Assembly (NCBI GenBank): GCA_023150345.1
Contig: JAKLLB010000032.1
Location: 1 to 40,418, forward strand
Length of the DNA: 40,418 nucleotides
DNA from: Aquabacterium sp.
Lineage (GTDB): Bacteria; Pseudomonadota; Gammaproteobacteria; Burkholderiales; Burkholderiaceae_C
Direction: 5' to 3'
Made by a program: the position numbers and the translations under genes. Of this stretch, positions 25,395 through 32,310 are shown one piece after another (the stretch's first letter is position 1; each line of letters starts with the position of its first letter). The notes beneath the pieces were generated by a model, which worked only from the letters and a program-made list of their open reading frames with translations, searched no databases and was not told the origin of the DNA.

Positions 25395-27758
25395 TTGGAC
25401 CAGATCCTTCTCCAGATCGCGACCGAACTGAAGGTTGCGCCGCGGCAGGTCGATGCCGCCGTTCAATTGCTCGATGGTGGCGCCACGGTGCCCTTCATCG
25501 CCCGCTACCGCAAGGAGGCCACCGACGGCCTCGACGACATCCAGCTGCGTGAGCTCGAGTCGCGCCTGGCTTACCTGCGTGAGCTGCAGCAGCGGCGCGA
25601 GGCCGTGCTGCGCAGCATCGACGAGCAGGGCAAGCTCACGCCGCAATTGCGTGCGGCCATCGAGGGCGCGCCGACCAAGCAGGAGCTCGAAGACCTGTAC
25701 CTGCCCTACAAGCCCAAGCGGCGCACCAAGGGCATGATCGCCCGGGAGGCGGGGCTGGAGCCGCTGGCCGACCGCCTGTTCGCCGACCCCTCGCTCGATC
25801 CGCAGGCCGAGGCTGCCGGCTACCTCAATGCCGAGGCCGGCTTCGCCGATGTGCATGCAGTGCTCGATGGTGTGCGCGACCTGCTCTCCGAGCGCTGGGC
25901 CGAGGACGCCGCGCTCGTGGGCCTGCTGCGCGAATGGTTGTGGGCCGAGGGCCGGTTTTGTTCGAAATTGGTCGATGGCAAGGACGAGAACCAGGCCGAC
26001 GTGTCCAAGTTCCGCGACTACTTCGATTACGCCGAGCCCATCCGCAGCGTGCCTTCGCACCGCGCGTTGGCGGTGTTTCGCGGCCGTGCGCTGGAACTGC
26101 TCGATGCCCGGCTGCAGCTCGACGAAGCCGAAGTGACGCTTCCACGAGGTGCCGCGGGCGCGCCTGCGGCCAAGCCGCCGGTCTCGCTGGCCGAAGGTCG
26201 CATTGCGCGCCACCTCGGGTGGAGCCATGCGGCGCGCCCGGCCGATGACCTCATCCGCAAGACCATCGCCTGGACCTGGAAGGTCAAGCTGTCGCTGAGC
26301 CTGGAGCGCGACCTGTTCGCGCGACTGCGTGAATCGGCCGAGGCCACCGCAATCAAGGTGTTCGCCGAGAACCTGCGCGACCTGCTGCTGGCAGCGCCGG
26401 CGGGCAAGCGCGTGGTGATGGGGCTCGACCCTGGAATCCGCACGGGCGTCAAGGTGGCGGTGGTGTCCGACACCGGCAAGGTGCTGGCCACGGCCACGGT
26501 GTATCCGCACGAGCCGCGCAACGACTGGGAAGGCGCTTTGCATGCGCTGGGCCGGCTGGTGGCCACGCATGGCGTGAACCTGATCGCCATCGGCAACGGC
26601 ACGGCCAGCCGCGAGACCGACCGCCTGGCCGGAGACCTCATCAAGCGCATCGCCCAGATCGCGCCGCAGGCGGCCGTGCAGAAGGTGGTGGTCAGCGAGG
26701 CGGGGGCGTCGGTCTATTCGGCCAGCGAGTTCGCGAGCCAGGAGTTGCCCGAGCTCGACGTGAGCCTGCGCGGCGCTGTGTCGATCGCCAGGCGGCTGCA
26801 GGATCCGCTGGCCGAGCTGGTGAAGATCGAGCCCAAGAGCATCGGCGTGGGCCAGTATCAGCACGACGTCAACCAGGGCGAGCTCGCTCGCACCCTCGAC
26901 GCGGTGGTGGAAGACTGCGTCAACAAGGTGGGGGTGGACCTGAACACCGCATCGGCGCCCCTGCTGGCGCGGGTGTCCGGCCTTTCGGCGTCGGTGGCCT
27001 CGGCGATCGTGCGCTGGCGCGATGTCCACGGCGCGTTTCGCAATCGCCGGCAGCTGCTCGAGGTGGCGGGGCTGGGGCCCAAGACCTTCGAACTGGCCGC
27101 CGGCTTCCTGCGCATTCGCGACGGCGACAACCCGCTGGACATGTCGGGCGTGCACCCCGAGACCTACCCGATCGTGCAGCGCGTGCTCGAAGGCCTGCGG
27201 CGGCCCATCACCGAGCTGATGGGCAAGGCCGATGTCATCCGCACCCTGCGCCCCGAGGCCTACGCCGACGAGCGCTTCGGCGCGATCACCGTGCGCGACG
27301 TGTTGGCCGAACTGGAAAAGCCCGGCCGCGACCCGCGCCCCGATTTCAAGGTGGCCCGGTTCAACGACGGCGTCGAAGACCTGAAGGACCTGAAGGAGGG
27401 CATGGTGCTCGAGGGCACCGTGAGCAACGTCGCGGAGTTCGGTGCGTTCGTGGACCTGGGCGTGCATCAGGACGGACTGGTGCATGTCAGTCAGCTCGCA
27501 CACCGTTTCGTGAACGACGCACGCGAGATCGTGAAGGCTGGCGACATCGTCAAGGTGAAGGTGCTCGAGGTGGATCTGGCGCGCAAGCGCATCGCGCTGA
27601 CCATGAAGCTCGATGCCTCGCCCGGTGCGCGCAGCGGCGCGCCGCGTGGCGAGGGCGCGCGTCCCGGGCAGCGCGCCGCCATGGTGCGTGCCGCATCGGA
27701 GCCGGCCGCGACGGGGGCGATGGCGGCGGCGTTCGCTCGCTTGCAGTCCAGGCGTTGA
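25395..27758 (+). CDS. tex: Tex family RNA-binding transcription accessory protein
   Basis: A 787-residue protein if started at TTG 25395 ([12 protein letters not shown]), the position that matches the normal Tex N-terminus and length of about 775-790. ATG 25311 would add 28 residues unlike the family. Domains in order: N-terminal helix-turn-helix region (1-190), the YqgF/RuvC-like domain ([18 protein letters not shown] about 338), helix-hairpin-helix repeats ([14 protein letters not shown] and [12 protein letters not shown], 515-570) and a C-terminal S1 RNA-binding domain ([22 protein letters not shown] about 670-740). The final 45 residues are alanine/arginine-rich. Tex is a conserved cytoplasmic nucleic-acid-binding protein that affects transcription. 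It is divergent from the halogenase operon with 242 bases between. Confidence 0.93.
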
Positions 27759-27804
27759 CAGCCCCCCCCCGATCGGCGCGCTGGTGCAGGCGCGCCGGCT
27801 CGCC

Positions 27805-27810
27805 TACAAT
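27805..27810 (+). promoter_or_regulatory. Candidate -10 box of the thrS promoter
   Basis: TACAAT (27805-27810) is a one-mismatch consensus -10 element. CTGGTG (27781-27786) could serve as a weak -35 box at 18 bases. Transcription would begin near 27817, leaving an approximately 178-base leader before thrS that contains the leader peptide and attenuator hairpins. Confidence 0.45.
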
Positions 27811-27856
27811 CAAGCCCACTTCCACCCTGGCAAGAGCGAGAAAGGCACATACGGTT

Positions 27857-27895
27857 ATGACACCGCGGACTACCCCGTTCGCCACCGGTACCTGA
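27857..27895 (+). CDS. Threonine-rich leader peptide upstream of thrS
   Basis: ATG 27857 to TGA 27893-27895 encodes MTPRTTPFATGT: 12 residues, five of them threonine (codons ACA, ACT, ACC, ACC, ACC). A GAAAGG sequence lies 11 bases before the ATG. The ORF ends about 48 bases before a strong terminator-like hairpin that precedes thrS. Such a composition is the hallmark of amino-acid leader peptides, in which ribosome stalling on scarce charged tRNA decides between antitermination and termination. The match of the enriched amino acid to the downstream synthetase makes chance unlikely. Confidence 0.75.
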   Translation: MTPRTTPFATGT

Positions 27896-27901
27896 TTCCG
27901 G

Positions 27902-27953
27902 CCGCGCTGTCACGCCTGTTCGTCTGCACTTCTCTCGAACACCAAAAGCGCGG
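27902..27953 (+). promoter_or_regulatory. Antiterminator pairing of the thrS attenuator
   Basis: CCGCGCT at 27902-27908 is exactly complementary to AGCGCGG at 27947-27953, which is the 5' arm of the terminator hairpin. It is also identical to the terminator's 3' arm (27961-27967). The two structures therefore exclude each other. CGCGG within the leader-peptide codons (27864-27868) can pair with CCGCG at 27902-27906 and act as the protector when the ribosome is not stalled. Confidence 0.6.
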
Positions 27954-27972
27954 TCACCCACCGCGCTTTTTT
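27944..27972 (+). terminator. Attenuator terminator hairpin in the thrS leader
   Basis: A perfect 10-bp stem (AAAAGCGCGG 27944-27953 with CCGCGCTTTT 27961-27970, loop TCACCCA) ends in a run of six Ts (27967-27972). It sits only 22 bases before the thrS ATG, so it cannot merely end the tex transcript; it would stop thrS transcription unless overridden by the antiterminator. Confidence 0.82.
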
Positions 27973-27994
27973 GTTGCCCATCGAATTTCACACC

Positions 27995-29827
27995 ATGATC
28001 ACGATCACGTTACCCGATGGCTCCCGTCGCCAGTACGAGCAACCACTGACGGTCGGTGCCGTGGCCGCTTCCATCGGTTCGGGCCTGGCCAAGGCGGCCC
28101 TGGCCGGGCGGGTGGGCGGGCCTGGCCAGGCGCGCCTGGTCGATCTCAGCCACCTGATCGATGCAGTGAAGGAGCTGTACCCCGAGGCGCAAGTCACCAT
28201 CGGTCCGGTCATCGACAACGGGTTCTACTACGACTTCTCCTACAAGCGACCCTTCACGCCGGAAGACCTGGCCGCCATCGAGTCGCGCATGGGCGAGCTG
28301 GCGAAGAAGGACGAGCCCGTGGTCAGGCGTGTGCTGCCGCGCGACGAGGCCGTGGCCCACTTCAAAGGCCTGGGCGAGCACTACAAGGCCGAGATCATCG
28401 CCAGCATTCCGGAGGGGCAGGACGTCTCGCTGTACCGGGAGGGTGGCTTCGAGGACCTGTGCCGCGGCCCGCACGTGCCCAGCACCGGGCGGCTCAAGCA
28501 CTTCAAGCTGATGAAGGTGGCCGGCGCCTACTGGCGCGGCGATCATCGCAACGAGATGCTGCAGCGCATCTACGGCACGGCCTGGGCCACCAAGGACGAC
28601 CTGCAGAACTACCTGCGCATGCTCGAAGAGGCCGAGAAGCGCGACCATCGCCGTCTCGGGCGTGAGCTCGACCTGTTCCACATCGATGAGCACTCGCCCG
28701 GCACCGTGTTCTGGCACCCCAAGGGCTGGACGGTGTGGCAGCAGGTCGAGCAGTACATGCGGCAGGTGTACCGGGACAACGGCTACCTGGAGGTCAAGGG
28801 CCCGCAGATCCTCGACAAGGGCCTGTGGGAGAAGACCGGCCACTGGCAGAAGTACCGGGAAAACATGTTCACCACAGAGTCGGAAAAGCGAGACTACGCG
28901 CTCAAGCCGATGAACTGCCCCGGCCACATCCTGATCTTCAAGCAGGGCATCAAGAGCTACCGAGACCTGCCGCTGCGCTACGGCGAGTTCGGGCAATGCC
29001 ACCGCAACGAGCCCACGGGCGGGCTGCACGGCATCATGCGCGTGCGCGGATTCACGCAGGACGACGGCCACATTTTCTGTACCGAGGAGCAGATCCTGGC
29101 CGAGTGCGTGGCCTACACCGCGCTGCTGCAGCGCGTGTATGCCGACTTCGGCTTCCAGAGCATCCTCTACAAGGTGGCCACTCGACCCGAAGCGCGTATC
29201 GGTTCGGACGAGAGCTGGGACAAGGCCGAGTTTGCGCTCATGGAGTCGCTTCGCCGATCCGGCTGCGAGTTCGTCATCTCTCCTGGCGACGGCGCCTTCT
29301 ACGGCCCCAAGATCGAGTACACGCTCAAAGACGCGCTCGGTCGCGAGTGGCAGTGCGGCACCATGCAGGTCGACTTCTTCATGGCCGAGCGGCTGGGCGC
29401 TGAGTACGTGGATGACTCCGGAGAGCGTCGCACTCCGGTGATGCTGCACCGCGCCATCGTCGGCAGCCTCGAGCGCTTCATCGGCATCCTGATCGAGCAG
29501 CATGCCGGTGCGCTGCCGGCGTGGCTGGCTCCTACCCAGGTGGTGGTGGCCTGTATCACCGACGGCCAGGCCGAATACGCCGCCCAAGTGGTGAAAACGC
29601 TGCAAAAACAAGGAGTTAGAGCCGAGTGCGATTTGCGCAACGAGAAGATCACGTATAAAATCCGCGAGCATTCGTTGCAAAAGGTCCCGTACATCCTCGT
29701 CGCAGGCGACAAGGAGAAGGCAAGCGGGGCCGTTGCCGTGCGCGCCCGAGGCAACCAGGATCTCGGCGTGATGCCGCTCGACGACTTCATCCATAAGCTC
29801 GCCGACGACATCGCCCGCAAGATCTGA
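27995..29827 (+). CDS. thrS: Threonine--tRNA ligase with an apparent internal deletion in the editing domain
   Basis: A 610-residue class II synthetase that charges tRNA-Thr. An N-terminal TGS domain (residues 1-55), the rest of the editing domain ([21 protein letters not shown] with C156 and H160), the catalytic core (motif 2 region [21 protein letters not shown] split; zinc ligands in MNCPGH, DDGHIF and MLHRAI) and the anticodon-binding domain are all present. The protein is about 25-30 residues shorter than the usual 635-642. The missing part lies at residue 56/57, where LVDLSHLID runs straight into [10 protein letters not shown]. The segment normally here includes the HSxAH editing-site histidines. 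Aminoacylation should be intact; clearance of Ser-tRNA-Thr may not be. It starts at ATG 27995; no ribosome site is obvious after the hairpin. Confidence 0.93.
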
Positions 29828-29902
29828 GGCGGCCTCCCGGCGCGCGCGTTCGCTTTTTGTCCGGCCCGTTGCTTGCCTTGGGGTCACGAAGGGGTCAGCA
29901 CC

Positions 29903-30454
29903 ATCGCTACTTTTCTCGATCGCCGGATGCCCAACGTCGAGCGCAAGCATCGACTGAACCGGGAGATCATGGCGCCCACGGTTCGCCTGAACGGCGTCAA
30001 CAACGAGCCCTTGGGGATCGTCAGTCTGCAAGAGGCCTTGCGCCTGTCGGGTGAAGCCGATGTCGATCTGGTCGAGATCGCCGCCGCGGCCGACCCGCCC
30101 GTGTGTCGGCTGATGGACTACGGCAAGTTCAAGTACCAGGAGCAGAAGAAGGCGTCCGAGGCCAAGTCCAAGCAGAAGGTCATCGAGGTCAAGGAAGTCA
30201 AGTTCCGCCCGGGCACCGACGAAGGCGACTACAACGTCAAGATGCGCAACCTGCGGCGGTTCATCGCCGAGGATGGCGACAAAGGCAAGGTGACACTGCG
30301 GTTCCGTGGCCGCGAGATCACCCACCAGGACATCGGCATGCGGCTGCTCGAGCGCATTCGTGATGAGTTGGCCGATGTGGCGGTTGTGGAGCACATGCCC
30401 AAGCTCGAGGGGCGCCAGATGATCATGGTGCTGGCACCGAAGAAGAAGCAGTGA
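29903..30454 (+). CDS. infC: Translation initiation factor IF-3, rare ATC start
   Basis: A 183-residue IF-3. The conserved N-terminus begins with ATC 29903 ([15 protein letters not shown]), eight bases after an AAGGGG ribosome site; the ATG farther in-frame (29928) would remove conserved residues. Use of AUC/AUU/AUA as start is a known self-regulation device: IF-3 itself discriminates against non-standard starts. The N-domain (RLNREI...[20 protein letters not shown]), lysine-rich linker ([15 protein letters not shown]) and C-domain ([32 protein letters not shown]) are complete. It binds the 30S subunit and checks start-codon pairing. Gene order thrS-infC-rpmI-rplT is the usual one. Confidence 0.94.
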
Positions 30455-30474
30455 AGTTCTGAGTTCGATTTCCG

Positions 30475-30498
30475 CTGCGCGGTCTGGTCACCGCGCAG
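30475..30498 (+). promoter_or_regulatory. Stable hairpin in the infC-rpmI spacer (candidate L20 leader element)
   Basis: CTGCGCGG (30475-30482) and CCGCGCAG (30491-30498) form a perfect 8-bp stem around an 8-base loop, without a T run. In other bacteria L20 represses translation of rpmI-rplT by binding structured RNA in this region. A second potential long-range pairing uses the repeated CTGCAG palindrome (about 30516 and 30554). The function here is inferred from position only. Confidence 0.4.
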
Positions 30499-30583
30499 AT
30501 TGGAAGACAAGCCGCTGCAGGCCATGCAAGTGCCGGAGCCAGTGCCCCGGCCGCCTGCAGGTGGCAACCTAGAAGGAGCAGTC

Positions 30584-30787
30584 ATGCCCAAGATGAAGAC
30601 CAAGAAGAGCGCGGCCAAGCGGTTCCGCGTCCGTCCGGGGGGTACCGTCAAGCGCGGTCAGGCGTTCAAGCGCCACATCCTCACGAAGAAGTCCACCACG
30701 CGCAAGCGCCACCTGCGTGGCGCGACGAACGTGCACGAGACCAACATGGCCGGGATGGCGCAGATGCTGCCGTTCGCGGGTCTGTGA
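30584..30787 (+). CDS. rpmI: 50S ribosomal protein L35
   Basis: A 67-residue basic protein beginning [16 protein letters not shown], the invariant start of bacterial L35, and ending [13 protein letters not shown] 30584 follows a strong AGAAGGAG ribosome site; the longer open frame upstream lacks family similarity. It lies 129 bases after infC and 30 bases before rplT and encodes a large-subunit protein. Confidence 0.97.
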
Positions 30788-30817
30788 TCAACCGACGACG
30801 GATAGAAGGAGCTACTC

Positions 30818-31174
30818 ATGCCTCGCGTCAAACGTGGTGTCACCGCACGCGCTCGTCACAAGAAGATCCTCGCGCTGGCCAAGGGCTATCGCGGTCGCCG
30901 CAAGAACGTCTTCCGCGTCGCCAAGCAGGCGGTGATGAAGGCGGGCCAATACGCCTACCGTGACCGCCGGACCCGCAAGCGCGTGTTCCGCCAGCTCTGG
31001 ATCGCCCGTATCAACGCGGCGGCCCGCGGTCTGGGGCTCACCTACAGCAAGTTCATGGCCGGCCTGAAGAAGGCCTCGATCGACATCGACCGCAAGGTCC
31101 TGGCCGATCTGGCTGTCAACGACCCTGCTGCCTTTGGCAGCATCGTGGCGAAGGTGAAGGCCCAGCTCGCTTGA
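30818..31174 (+). CDS. rplT: 50S ribosomal protein L20
   Basis: A 118-residue protein with the standard L20 sequence [29 protein letters not shown] (seen in two parts) and length. It binds 23S rRNA early in large-subunit assembly and in other bacteria is the autoregulator of this operon. AGAAGGAGCTACTC precedes the ATG. A tandem hairpin array follows the stop before pheS. Confidence 0.97.
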
Positions 31175-31179
31175 TCCCG

Positions 31180-31210
31180 GCCTGGCAGCGGCGTCCAGCC
31201 GCTCCCAGGC
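31180..31210 (+). promoter_or_regulatory. Hairpin immediately after rplT
   Basis: GCCTGG (31180-31185) pairs with CCAGGC (31205-31210), and AGCGGC (31187-31192) with GCCGCT (31198-31203), broken by a single C-C mismatch; the loop is GTCCA. It lies 11 bases before the terminator hairpin at 31222 and may protect the 3' end of the ribosomal protein message or alternate with that terminator. Confidence 0.45.
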
Positions 31211-31221
31211 ATCGAGCATTC

Positions 31222-31250
31222 AAGGCCGTCACCTCGGGGCGGCCTTTTTT
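31222..31250 (+). terminator. Rho-independent terminator between rplT and pheS
   Basis: AAGGCCG (31222-31228) pairs with CGGCCTT (31240-31246) around an 11-base loop, followed by a run of six Ts (31245-31250). It lies 16 bases before the pheS ATG. Because no promoter is evident between it and pheS, it may work as a partial terminator or attenuator. No phenylalanine-rich leader peptide comparable to pheM is visible in the 92-base spacer. Confidence 0.75.
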
Positions 31251-31266
31251 ATTGGTTCGATAGACG

Positions 31267-32310
31267 ATGAACGAACTCGATCAACTGGTGGATGGTGCGC
31301 ACGCGGCATTCGCTGCGGCTCCCACGCCGGCCGAGCTTGAAAACGCCAAGGCCCGCTACCTGGGCAAGTCCGGGCAAGTCACCGAATTGCTCAAGGCACT
31401 GGCGTCACTGTCACCTGACGAGAAGAAGTCGCGCGGTGCGCGCATCAACGAGGCCAAGCAGCAGATAGAGGCCGCGCTGCAGCAGCGCCGCCAGGCGCTG
31501 GCCGATGCCGAGCTGCAGGTGCAGCTGCGCGCCGAGGCGCTCGATGTCACCCTGCCGGGCCGCCAGCGCGGCGTGGGCAGCGTGCACCCGGTGTCGCGCA
31601 CCATCGAGCGCATCGAGTCCATCTTCGCGTCGATGGGCTTCGACGTGGCCGATGGCCCCGAAATCGAGACCGACTGGATGAACTTCACCGCGCTGAACAA
31701 CCCGGCCAATCATCCGGCGCGTTCGATGCAGGACACCTTCTACGTCGACATGAAGGACGCCGACGGGATGTGGTACTGCCTGCGCACGCACACCAGCCCG
31801 ATGCAGGTGCGCTACGCGCGCGCGCACGCCGAGCGCCACGCTGGTGCCGCCACCATGCCCGAGATCCGCGTCATCGCCCCGGGCCGCACCTACCGGGTGG
31901 ACAGCGATGCCACCCATTCGCCCATGTTCCATCAGTGCGAAGGCCTGTGGATCGGCGAGAACGTCAGCTTCAAGGACCTCAAGGCGGTGTTCACCGACTT
32001 CTGCCGCCGCTTCTTCGAGAGCGACGACCTGCAGCTGCGTTTCCGACCCTCGTTCTTCCCGTTCACCGAGCCGTCGGCCGAGATCGACATCGCGTTCTCC
32101 AGCGGGCCGCTGCAGGGCAAGTGGCTGGAAGTCGCCGGTTCGGGCCAGGTGCATCCGAACGTGGTGCGCAACTTCGGTCTCGACCCCGAGCGCTACATCG
32201 GCTTCGCCTTCGGCATGGGCCCCGATCGCCTCACCATGCTGCGCTATGGCGTGAGCGACCTGCGCCTGTTCTTCGAGGGCGACCTGCGTTTCCTGTCGCA
32301 GTTCCGCTAA
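31267..32310 (+). CDS. pheS: Phenylalanine--tRNA ligase alpha subunit
   Basis: A 347-residue class II synthetase subunit. The N-terminal coiled coil (about residues 1-85) precedes the catalytic core with the motif-2 region [11 protein letters not shown] and [28 protein letters not shown], and motif 3 [22 protein letters not shown] at the C-terminus. It works as an alpha2-beta2 tetramer with PheT to charge tRNA-Phe. Length is normal. The spacer to pheT is 77 bases. Confidence 0.96.

Follow-up and report, generated by a model that had tools for sequence, protein, structure and literature searches.

The region directly upstream of thrS in an Aquabacterium sp. of the order Burkholderiales is very probably a ribosome-mediated transcription attenuator, which would sense charged tRNA-Thr through the translation of a short, threonine-rich leader. 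The window, i.e., the whole 40,418-nucleotide stretch of DNA that was analyzed (GCA_023150345.1, contig JAKLLB010000032.1, positions 1-40,418, + strand), carries on its + strand, in this order, tex, the leader, thrS, infC, rpmI, rplT, a terminator, and pheS. The regulated gene, thrS (27995..29827, +), encodes threonyl-tRNA synthetase (ThrRS), as judged from its Pfam domains tRNA-synt_2b, tRNA_SAD, and HGTP_anticodon. It shares 66-82% identity in the best segment with the best 80 named relatives, and the nearest full-length sequences among the matches listed are those of Methylibium, Rubrivivax, Roseateles, and Piscinibacter, with 79-81% identity.

The leader ORF MTPRTTPFATGT lies at 27857-27895 (+) and has 12 codons, ATG (27857) followed by ACA CCG CGG ACT ACC CCG TTC GCC ACC GGT ACC and the stop codon TGA (27893-27895), with Thr at codons 2, 5, 6, 10, and 12. 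The short ORF with five Thr codons among twelve, pointed out in the preliminary description of this DNA, can therefore be read directly from the sequence at the coordinates given there, and the cognate-codon enrichment typical of attenuator leaders amounts to 5 of 12 codons of a putative translation. The ORF is preceded by a likely Shine-Dalgarno sequence, GAGAAAGG (27838..27845, +), in which GAAAGGC is invariant in an alignment of 40 rows that combines the window with named relatives, and by a likely promoter -10 box, TACAAT (27805..27810, +), recognized by its conserved position. Between the leader and the first gene stands an intrinsic terminator (27944-27972), which consists of a 5' arm (segment 3, 27944-27954, or 27944..27955 with the base used by the antiterminator, +), a loop (27955-27959), and segment 4 (27960..27972, +), composed of the 3' arm (27960-27970) and the T run (27967-27972). 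The T's extend to 27972, 22 nt ahead of the thrS ATG at 27995. The terminator and its spacing had been described correctly, while the perfect stem comprises 11 pairs rather than the 10 claimed. RNAfold returns this hairpin with -15.9 kcal/mol, and it aligns with those of relatives, three of eight consensus pairs being changed on both sides in at least one of the 40 rows. A simple terminator pattern scan does not list the hairpin at 27944-27972, presumably because four of its T's can be counted into the stem. A Shine-Dalgarno sequence for thrS itself is not obvious by eye at 27973-27994 of the window, and several relatives have GGAG there.

Two further segments allow the RNA to fold in competing ways. 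Segment 1, TGACACCGCGG (27858..27868, +; from RNAfold), overlaps the leader start and the first codons, and segment 2, GGCCGCGCTGTCA (27900..27912, +), begins four bases past the stop codon and can be the partner of either segment 1 or segment 3. The duplication of the terminator 3' arm previously noticed at 27902-27908 (CCGCGCT) is seen in the sequence as part of segment 2. When the untranslated leader is folded with RNAfold, 27858-27868 pairs with 27902-27912 (TGACAcCGCGG with CCGCGcTGTCA, one C-C mismatch) and the terminator forms in addition. This 1:2 pairing was not named in the preliminary description, and its addition completes the classical 1:2 / 2:3 / 3:4 scheme. The antiterminator (2:3) comprises 9 bp, 27900-27908 with 27947-27955 (GGCCGCGCU with AGCGCGGUC), occupies the 5' arm of the terminator, and is the optimal fold of 27886-27958, which represents the RNA made as far as the loop with segment 1 covered (-22.3 kcal/mol for the stretch). 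A ribosome placed on the stop codon leaves just the terminator plus one small hairpin. Folding with and without an occupied leader, which the preliminary description had proposed, thus gives the expected structure in the window for each of three ribosome states. At equilibrium, once the 3' arm has been made, the terminator is favored over the antiterminator even if segment 1 is covered, and the switch would therefore have to be kinetic, with the choice made during transcription.

The following sequence of events can be proposed. RNA polymerase would start near 27817, and a ribosome would begin the leader ORF. If Thr-tRNA is plentiful, the ribosome would reach the stop codon and cover segment 2, the terminator at 27944-27970 would form, and transcription would stop before thrS. 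If Thr-tRNA is scarce, the ribosome would stall on the early Thr codons and cover segment 1; 27900-27908 would then pair with 27947-27955, allowing read-through into thrS, and possibly onward into infC-rpmI-rplT. In an untranslated leader, segment 1 would pair with segment 2, and the terminator would form. The most likely outcome, as predicted from the sequence, is that the cell would make more ThrRS when threonine-loaded tRNA is short.

For comparison, 210 thrS upstream regions were collected from the window, the best 80 named contigs, and 129 loci of genomes in the same GTDB family; of the 150 genomes in the family set, 146 gave a thrS match, 16 of which lie outside the 210 upstream regions. 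A 13-nt core, TTATGACACCGCG, occurs in 146 of the 210 regions (103 of the 129 family loci, 42 of the best 80 named ones, and the window). Removal of three duplicates (the three pairs in which the same element had come from two sources), one element in which no terminator was found, and three with weak terminators left 139 distinct elements. A TANAAT motif is present at -75 to -25 of the leader ATG, at a median of -50, in 98 of 136 of them (three with short upstream sequence being left out), and in 1 of 136 when a control stretch lying about 165-220 nt upstream is taken instead. This points to a putative promoter, although a scan for a full sigma-70 site at 9 of 12 matches gave none in 27700-31300. 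As the elements were chosen on the 13-nt core, their common MTPR is shared by construction, which is not so for Thr at codons 5 and 6, found in 139/139 and 113/139 elements, respectively. From codon 6 on, Thr accounts for 313 of 1235 residues (0.253), compared with 0.077 +/- 0.007 expected after base shuffling, and for only 12 of 1096 (0.011) and 34 of 1096 (0.031) in the +1 and +2 frames; the second commonest residue in this variable part is Ser (120/1235). The leaders have a median length of 13 codons and contain two Thr in 8, three in 27, and four or more in 104 of the 139 elements. The preliminary description had held that the proposal would fall if the Thr codons were not conserved among relatives; in the 139 elements they are kept, and their enrichment is specific to the frame. 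Codon 2 is ACA in all 139 elements, by construction, and codon 5 is ACT in 128 and ACG in 11, while ACA and ACT make up 2 and 4 of the 76 Thr codons in five genes of the window. Early rare Thr codons would suit a sensor of high sensitivity, and pairing of the RNA could equally explain them.

The pairings recur among the relatives to different degrees. Compared with the mean of its dinucleotide shuffles, the 2:3 pairing has the higher stability in 129 of the 139 elements, and it is among the best 5% in 49, whereas the 1:2 pairing, clear in the window fold, exceeds the shuffle mean in 114 and is among the best 5% only in 25. Segment 2 as deduced from either pairing overlaps by at least 4 nt in 129/139 elements, and it starts at a median of 1 nt past the stop codon (interquartile range, -5 to +3.5; 5th-95th percentile, -23 to +12), so that a terminating ribosome would cover it. 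The base pair flanking the antiterminator core can form in 75 of 127 rows when placement is made by the core alone, vs 49.7 +/- 4.2 with shuffled labels, and in 98 of 129 rows vs 64.9 expected when the flank takes part in placement, counts that ignore the relatedness of the rows. In the 54 rows where this flank base is unpaired within the terminator, 22 pair with segment 2; the next pair outward gives no signal (75/127 vs 72.6). Swap tests, in which an element's own spacer was compared with foreign ones, were considered as strong evidence of coevolution and came out weak: the own spacer exceeded the mean of foreign ones in 86/139, 11/20, 28/40, and 16/20 cases for 2:3, and in 78/139, 13/20, 25/40, and 13/20 cases for 1:2. 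RNAalifold on the 40-row alignment returned neither 1:2 nor 2:3, which a single consensus fold over variable spacers would hardly show; its consensus contains the terminator and, around the start codon, a small hairpin, GGTTATGACACC. The conservation of the alternative pairing, on which the earlier proposal was also staked, is borne out by the stability of 2:3 and by one covarying flank pair, although the swap tests are weak, and the sequences lend the alternative pairings real, moderate support. In two loci (L099 and L072), the stretch after the leader, AGTCGAGG...TTTTTCGTC, resembles by eye the terminator 3' half and its tail, as if segment 2 had arisen by duplication of half of the terminator.

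Related leaders also occur outside the window's family. An 18-nt core spanning the leader start, GGTTATGACACCGCGRAC, has one match each in 115 of the 150 family genomes, upstream of thrS, and the reversed control sequence has no match in the same genomes; in the matching genomes of the upstream set, the core falls inside the collected stretch, and in the 11 others, comparison of coordinates by eye puts it some hundreds of bases ahead of the thrS match, with contig and strand the same. Judged from these matches and from the frame specificity of the Thr enrichment, the element is more than a chance occurrence. Across the class, the 18-nt core was found among 185 genomes only in that of the window and one other of its family. 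In a sample of 140 genomes of the order, TTATGACACCGCGRAC occurs in 12, which belong to seven families including that of the window (f1, f3, f8, f10, f35, f39, and f47), and all 12 matches lie, by eye, a few hundred bases upstream of the thrS match. The 64 of the 210 regions that lack the exact core comprise 24 with a terminator alone, 20 in which no terminator was found, one truncated at a contig end, and 19 with a variant -RT- leader before a terminator, a count that rests on a loose filter and may include chance cases such as L150 and L091. Variovorax paradoxus (L098) and Acidovorax delafieldii (L057) are among the carriers of the element. Related leaders are found in Ralstonia (MIQAPRTTTASERQ), Pandoraea (MIARTFTVVKVRR), Achromobacter (MFFPPARTTTRNFRPMSR), and Bordetella petrii (MISRPTRTTTGNFRPMSR), the terminator of the last having failed the loose filter. 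In a set of 79 loci taken from 49 further families of the order (82 less one incomplete and two duplicates), an -RT- leader that has two or more Thr and is followed by a terminator was found at 22 loci in 17 families, or at 20 loci in 15 families when two that look spurious (L273 and L276) are set aside; likely leaders were missed by the filters at L229, L240, and L262, which makes 15 families a floor as far as such misses go. Some loci of the upstream set have other arrangements. In five of them (L045, L051, L055, L063, and L093; two are labelled Limnohabitans and one Rhodoferax), a GCGCGG/ACGCGG-type terminator follows a TAAAAT box at a distance of 19-30 nt and ends about 7-52 nt ahead of thrS, so that a terminator closely follows a promoter; neither a leader ORF nor a segment 2 is seen there. 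In a Polaromonas locus (L056), the leader at about 2355 has a start that reads ATA (CTATAACACCGCG) in front of an intact terminator, like a decaying leader.

Further observations that speak against the attenuator reading are the 8 of 139 leaders with just two Thr codons and the relatives, some in number, that keep the terminator without a leader. The latter would be natural if the hairpin were an ordinary terminator of the upstream gene, tex here and tRNA-Val in many relatives, with an incidental short ORF. In the other families, tRNA-Val(GAC) indeed lies upstream of thrS on the same strand at 56 of the 79 loci (L219-L298), made up of 16 among the 20 leader-bearing loci and 40 among the 59 scored as leaderless, and several of these, e.g., L251, L265, L272, L278, and L284, have the terminator and no leader. 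This explanation nevertheless seems very unlikely, as it leaves no place for the frame-specific Thr enrichment and the conserved leader start, and the window has no tRNA upstream of thrS. In the window's family, the tRNA-Val was found in the examined upstream stretch of only 2 of 129 loci, and a promoter-like box stands there instead; with this conserved -10 box between tex and the leader (98/136), the terminator seems to have a promoter of its own upstream.

The strict conservation of the core might alternatively reflect autogenous control, in which ThrRS would bind the leader RNA, the core being a putative protein-binding site and the Thr codons secondary. That TTATGACACCGCGRAC is kept in seven families is more than the peptide needs at wobble positions, and the small hairpin given by RNAalifold around the start codon, GGTTATGACACC, could serve such binding; most of the core, however, finds its 1:2 partner in the fold without any protein, and the terminator right before thrS, the Thr codons beyond the core, and the stop codon adjoining segment 2 argue for sensing by a ribosome, which makes protein binding highly improbable as the basis of the element. 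It is less credible still that the leader responds to any slowing of translation or initiation and not to threonine in particular. The shared Pro and Arg codons of MTPRT would suit a general sensor, as would the leaders with only two Thr codons and codon 4, which is CGA in 131 of the 139 leaders (CGG in the window), a codon used for 11 of 192 Arg residues in five neighboring genes, but Thr is by far the commonest residue of the variable part, and the regulated enzyme is ThrRS itself. The threonine-sensing attenuator claimed in the preliminary description is thus supported by its conserved, frame-specific Thr codons and by the competing folds.

How far read-through would extend depends on the genes behind thrS, infC (29903-30454, +; Pfam), rpmI (about 30584-30787, +; by resemblance, from the translation), and rplT (30818-31174, +; Pfam), which as a group (29903..31174) are possibly in one transcript with thrS. 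The start codon of infC is most likely ATC (29903-29905), behind AAGGGG; rare start codons are known for infC of E. coli. No + strand terminator was found from thrS to rplT by the pattern scan, the same scan that missed the one before thrS, and it lists one at 31222-31246. This terminator-like site between rplT and pheS, 20 nt ahead of the pheS start, resembles the one before thrS, and no Phe-rich leader is visible by eye ahead of it. In a table for Cupriavidus metallidurans, the thrS promoter is assigned to Rmet_R0015, and infC and rpmI are given promoters of their own (PMC9045368, the table), a warning that these two genes need not depend on an attenuator before thrS.

At the Rfam gathering score, the whole window contains only a tRNA, and the leader element has no match. 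The sub-threshold hits in 27760-28010 are ncS54 and PtaRNA1. The former (Burkholderia sRNA 54; 27907-27974) scored 19.7 bits vs a gathering score of 43 and was dropped as a chance match; in the 150 family genomes, ncS54 gave hits in three, none over the cut-off and none near thrS. PtaRNA1 is a weak match on the - strand (27788-27833, 23.3 bits vs 47). In E. coli, ThrRS represses the translation of thrS by binding a tRNA-like RNA that overlaps the thrS ribosome-binding site, with no leader peptide or terminator; the same gene is controlled there, by ThrRS binding instead of leader translation and termination. In Gram-positive bacteria, T-boxes of thrS bind uncharged tRNA-Thr directly and switch a terminator. 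The state of tRNA-Thr would likewise switch a terminator in the present case, unlike in T-boxes without direct binding of the tRNA, and Rfam finds no T-box in the window. The E. coli thrL leader of thrABC, represented by Thr_leader in Rfam, also controls a terminator through Thr codons in a leader peptide, but it regulates biosynthesis genes, and Thr_leader has no match in the window at threshold and none among the hits up to E 5 in 27760-28010. Similar in plan is the attenuator of gammaproteobacterial pheST, whose leader peptide is pheM: both have a cognate-rich leader peptide and a terminator/antiterminator switch ahead of an aminoacyl-tRNA synthetase operon, and they differ in amino acid and enzyme and in that the leader start described here is conserved at the nucleotide level across families of the order.

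The synthetase genes pheST, trpS, and leuS are named as having classical attenuators in the available text of PMC1262725, where thrS is absent; the same text states that proteobacterial attenuator patterns can be retained over large distances, and in this light the conserved core is less peculiar than it may seem. For Streptomyces lividans, a putative short ORF with Thr codons upstream of thrS, thrL, has been proposed as an attenuator (PMC8079986, in the part available). It shares with the present leader its position and Thr codons and differs in its peptide, MKRVRPFLETTPGFVPAR, with two Thr, in its leaderless start, and in that termination is unclear according to that report; by eye, the two leaders show no sequence resemblance. 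The accessible part of PMC5688073, which reports on ncS54, records short 5'UTRs before the tRNA synthetase genes BCAL3373 and BCAL3436, thrS is absent from the main text of PMC2965389, and in the accessible part of PMC6315756 it appears only in a proteomics table. We found no description of a Burkholderiales thrS leader peptide in the open-access literature; Lopatovskaya et al. 2010 (Mol Biol 44:128), beyond that scope, may contain the case. The kind of system is known, and the present one is a well-conserved member of it for which no earlier description was found in the open-access literature.

As for its origin, the leader may have arisen between the tRNA-Val terminator and thrS, or it may have been lost repeatedly. 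We tentatively suggest, as a possibility that could well prove wrong, that the leaders of Burkholderiales go back to a single ancient element and that its 16-nt core, TTATGACACCGCGAAC, which contains the start codon, has not changed in members of at least seven families because of a double function: it would encode the first Thr codons in forms that are rare in neighboring genes (ACA and ACT), and it would be the RNA arm that closes the switch, hiding the leader's own start. The element would sit where the tRNA-Val terminator meets thrS, an ordinary tRNA terminator having been converted into a regulatory switch, or the opposite may have happened, with losses. Lineages that have the terminator and no leader are natural experiments. 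The mechanism itself would not be surprising; how widely it occurs in the order, the conservation of a core containing the start codon, and the association with tRNA-Val would be. Rfam has no match to the element, which could receive an annotation in many genera of Burkholderiales. If the attenuator reading is true, bacteria would control thrS by at least three unrelated means: T-boxes in Firmicutes, the binding of ThrRS to the thrS mRNA in E. coli, and a Thr leader peptide in Burkholderiales. This bears on how often leader-peptide control has arisen for aminoacyl-tRNA synthetases.
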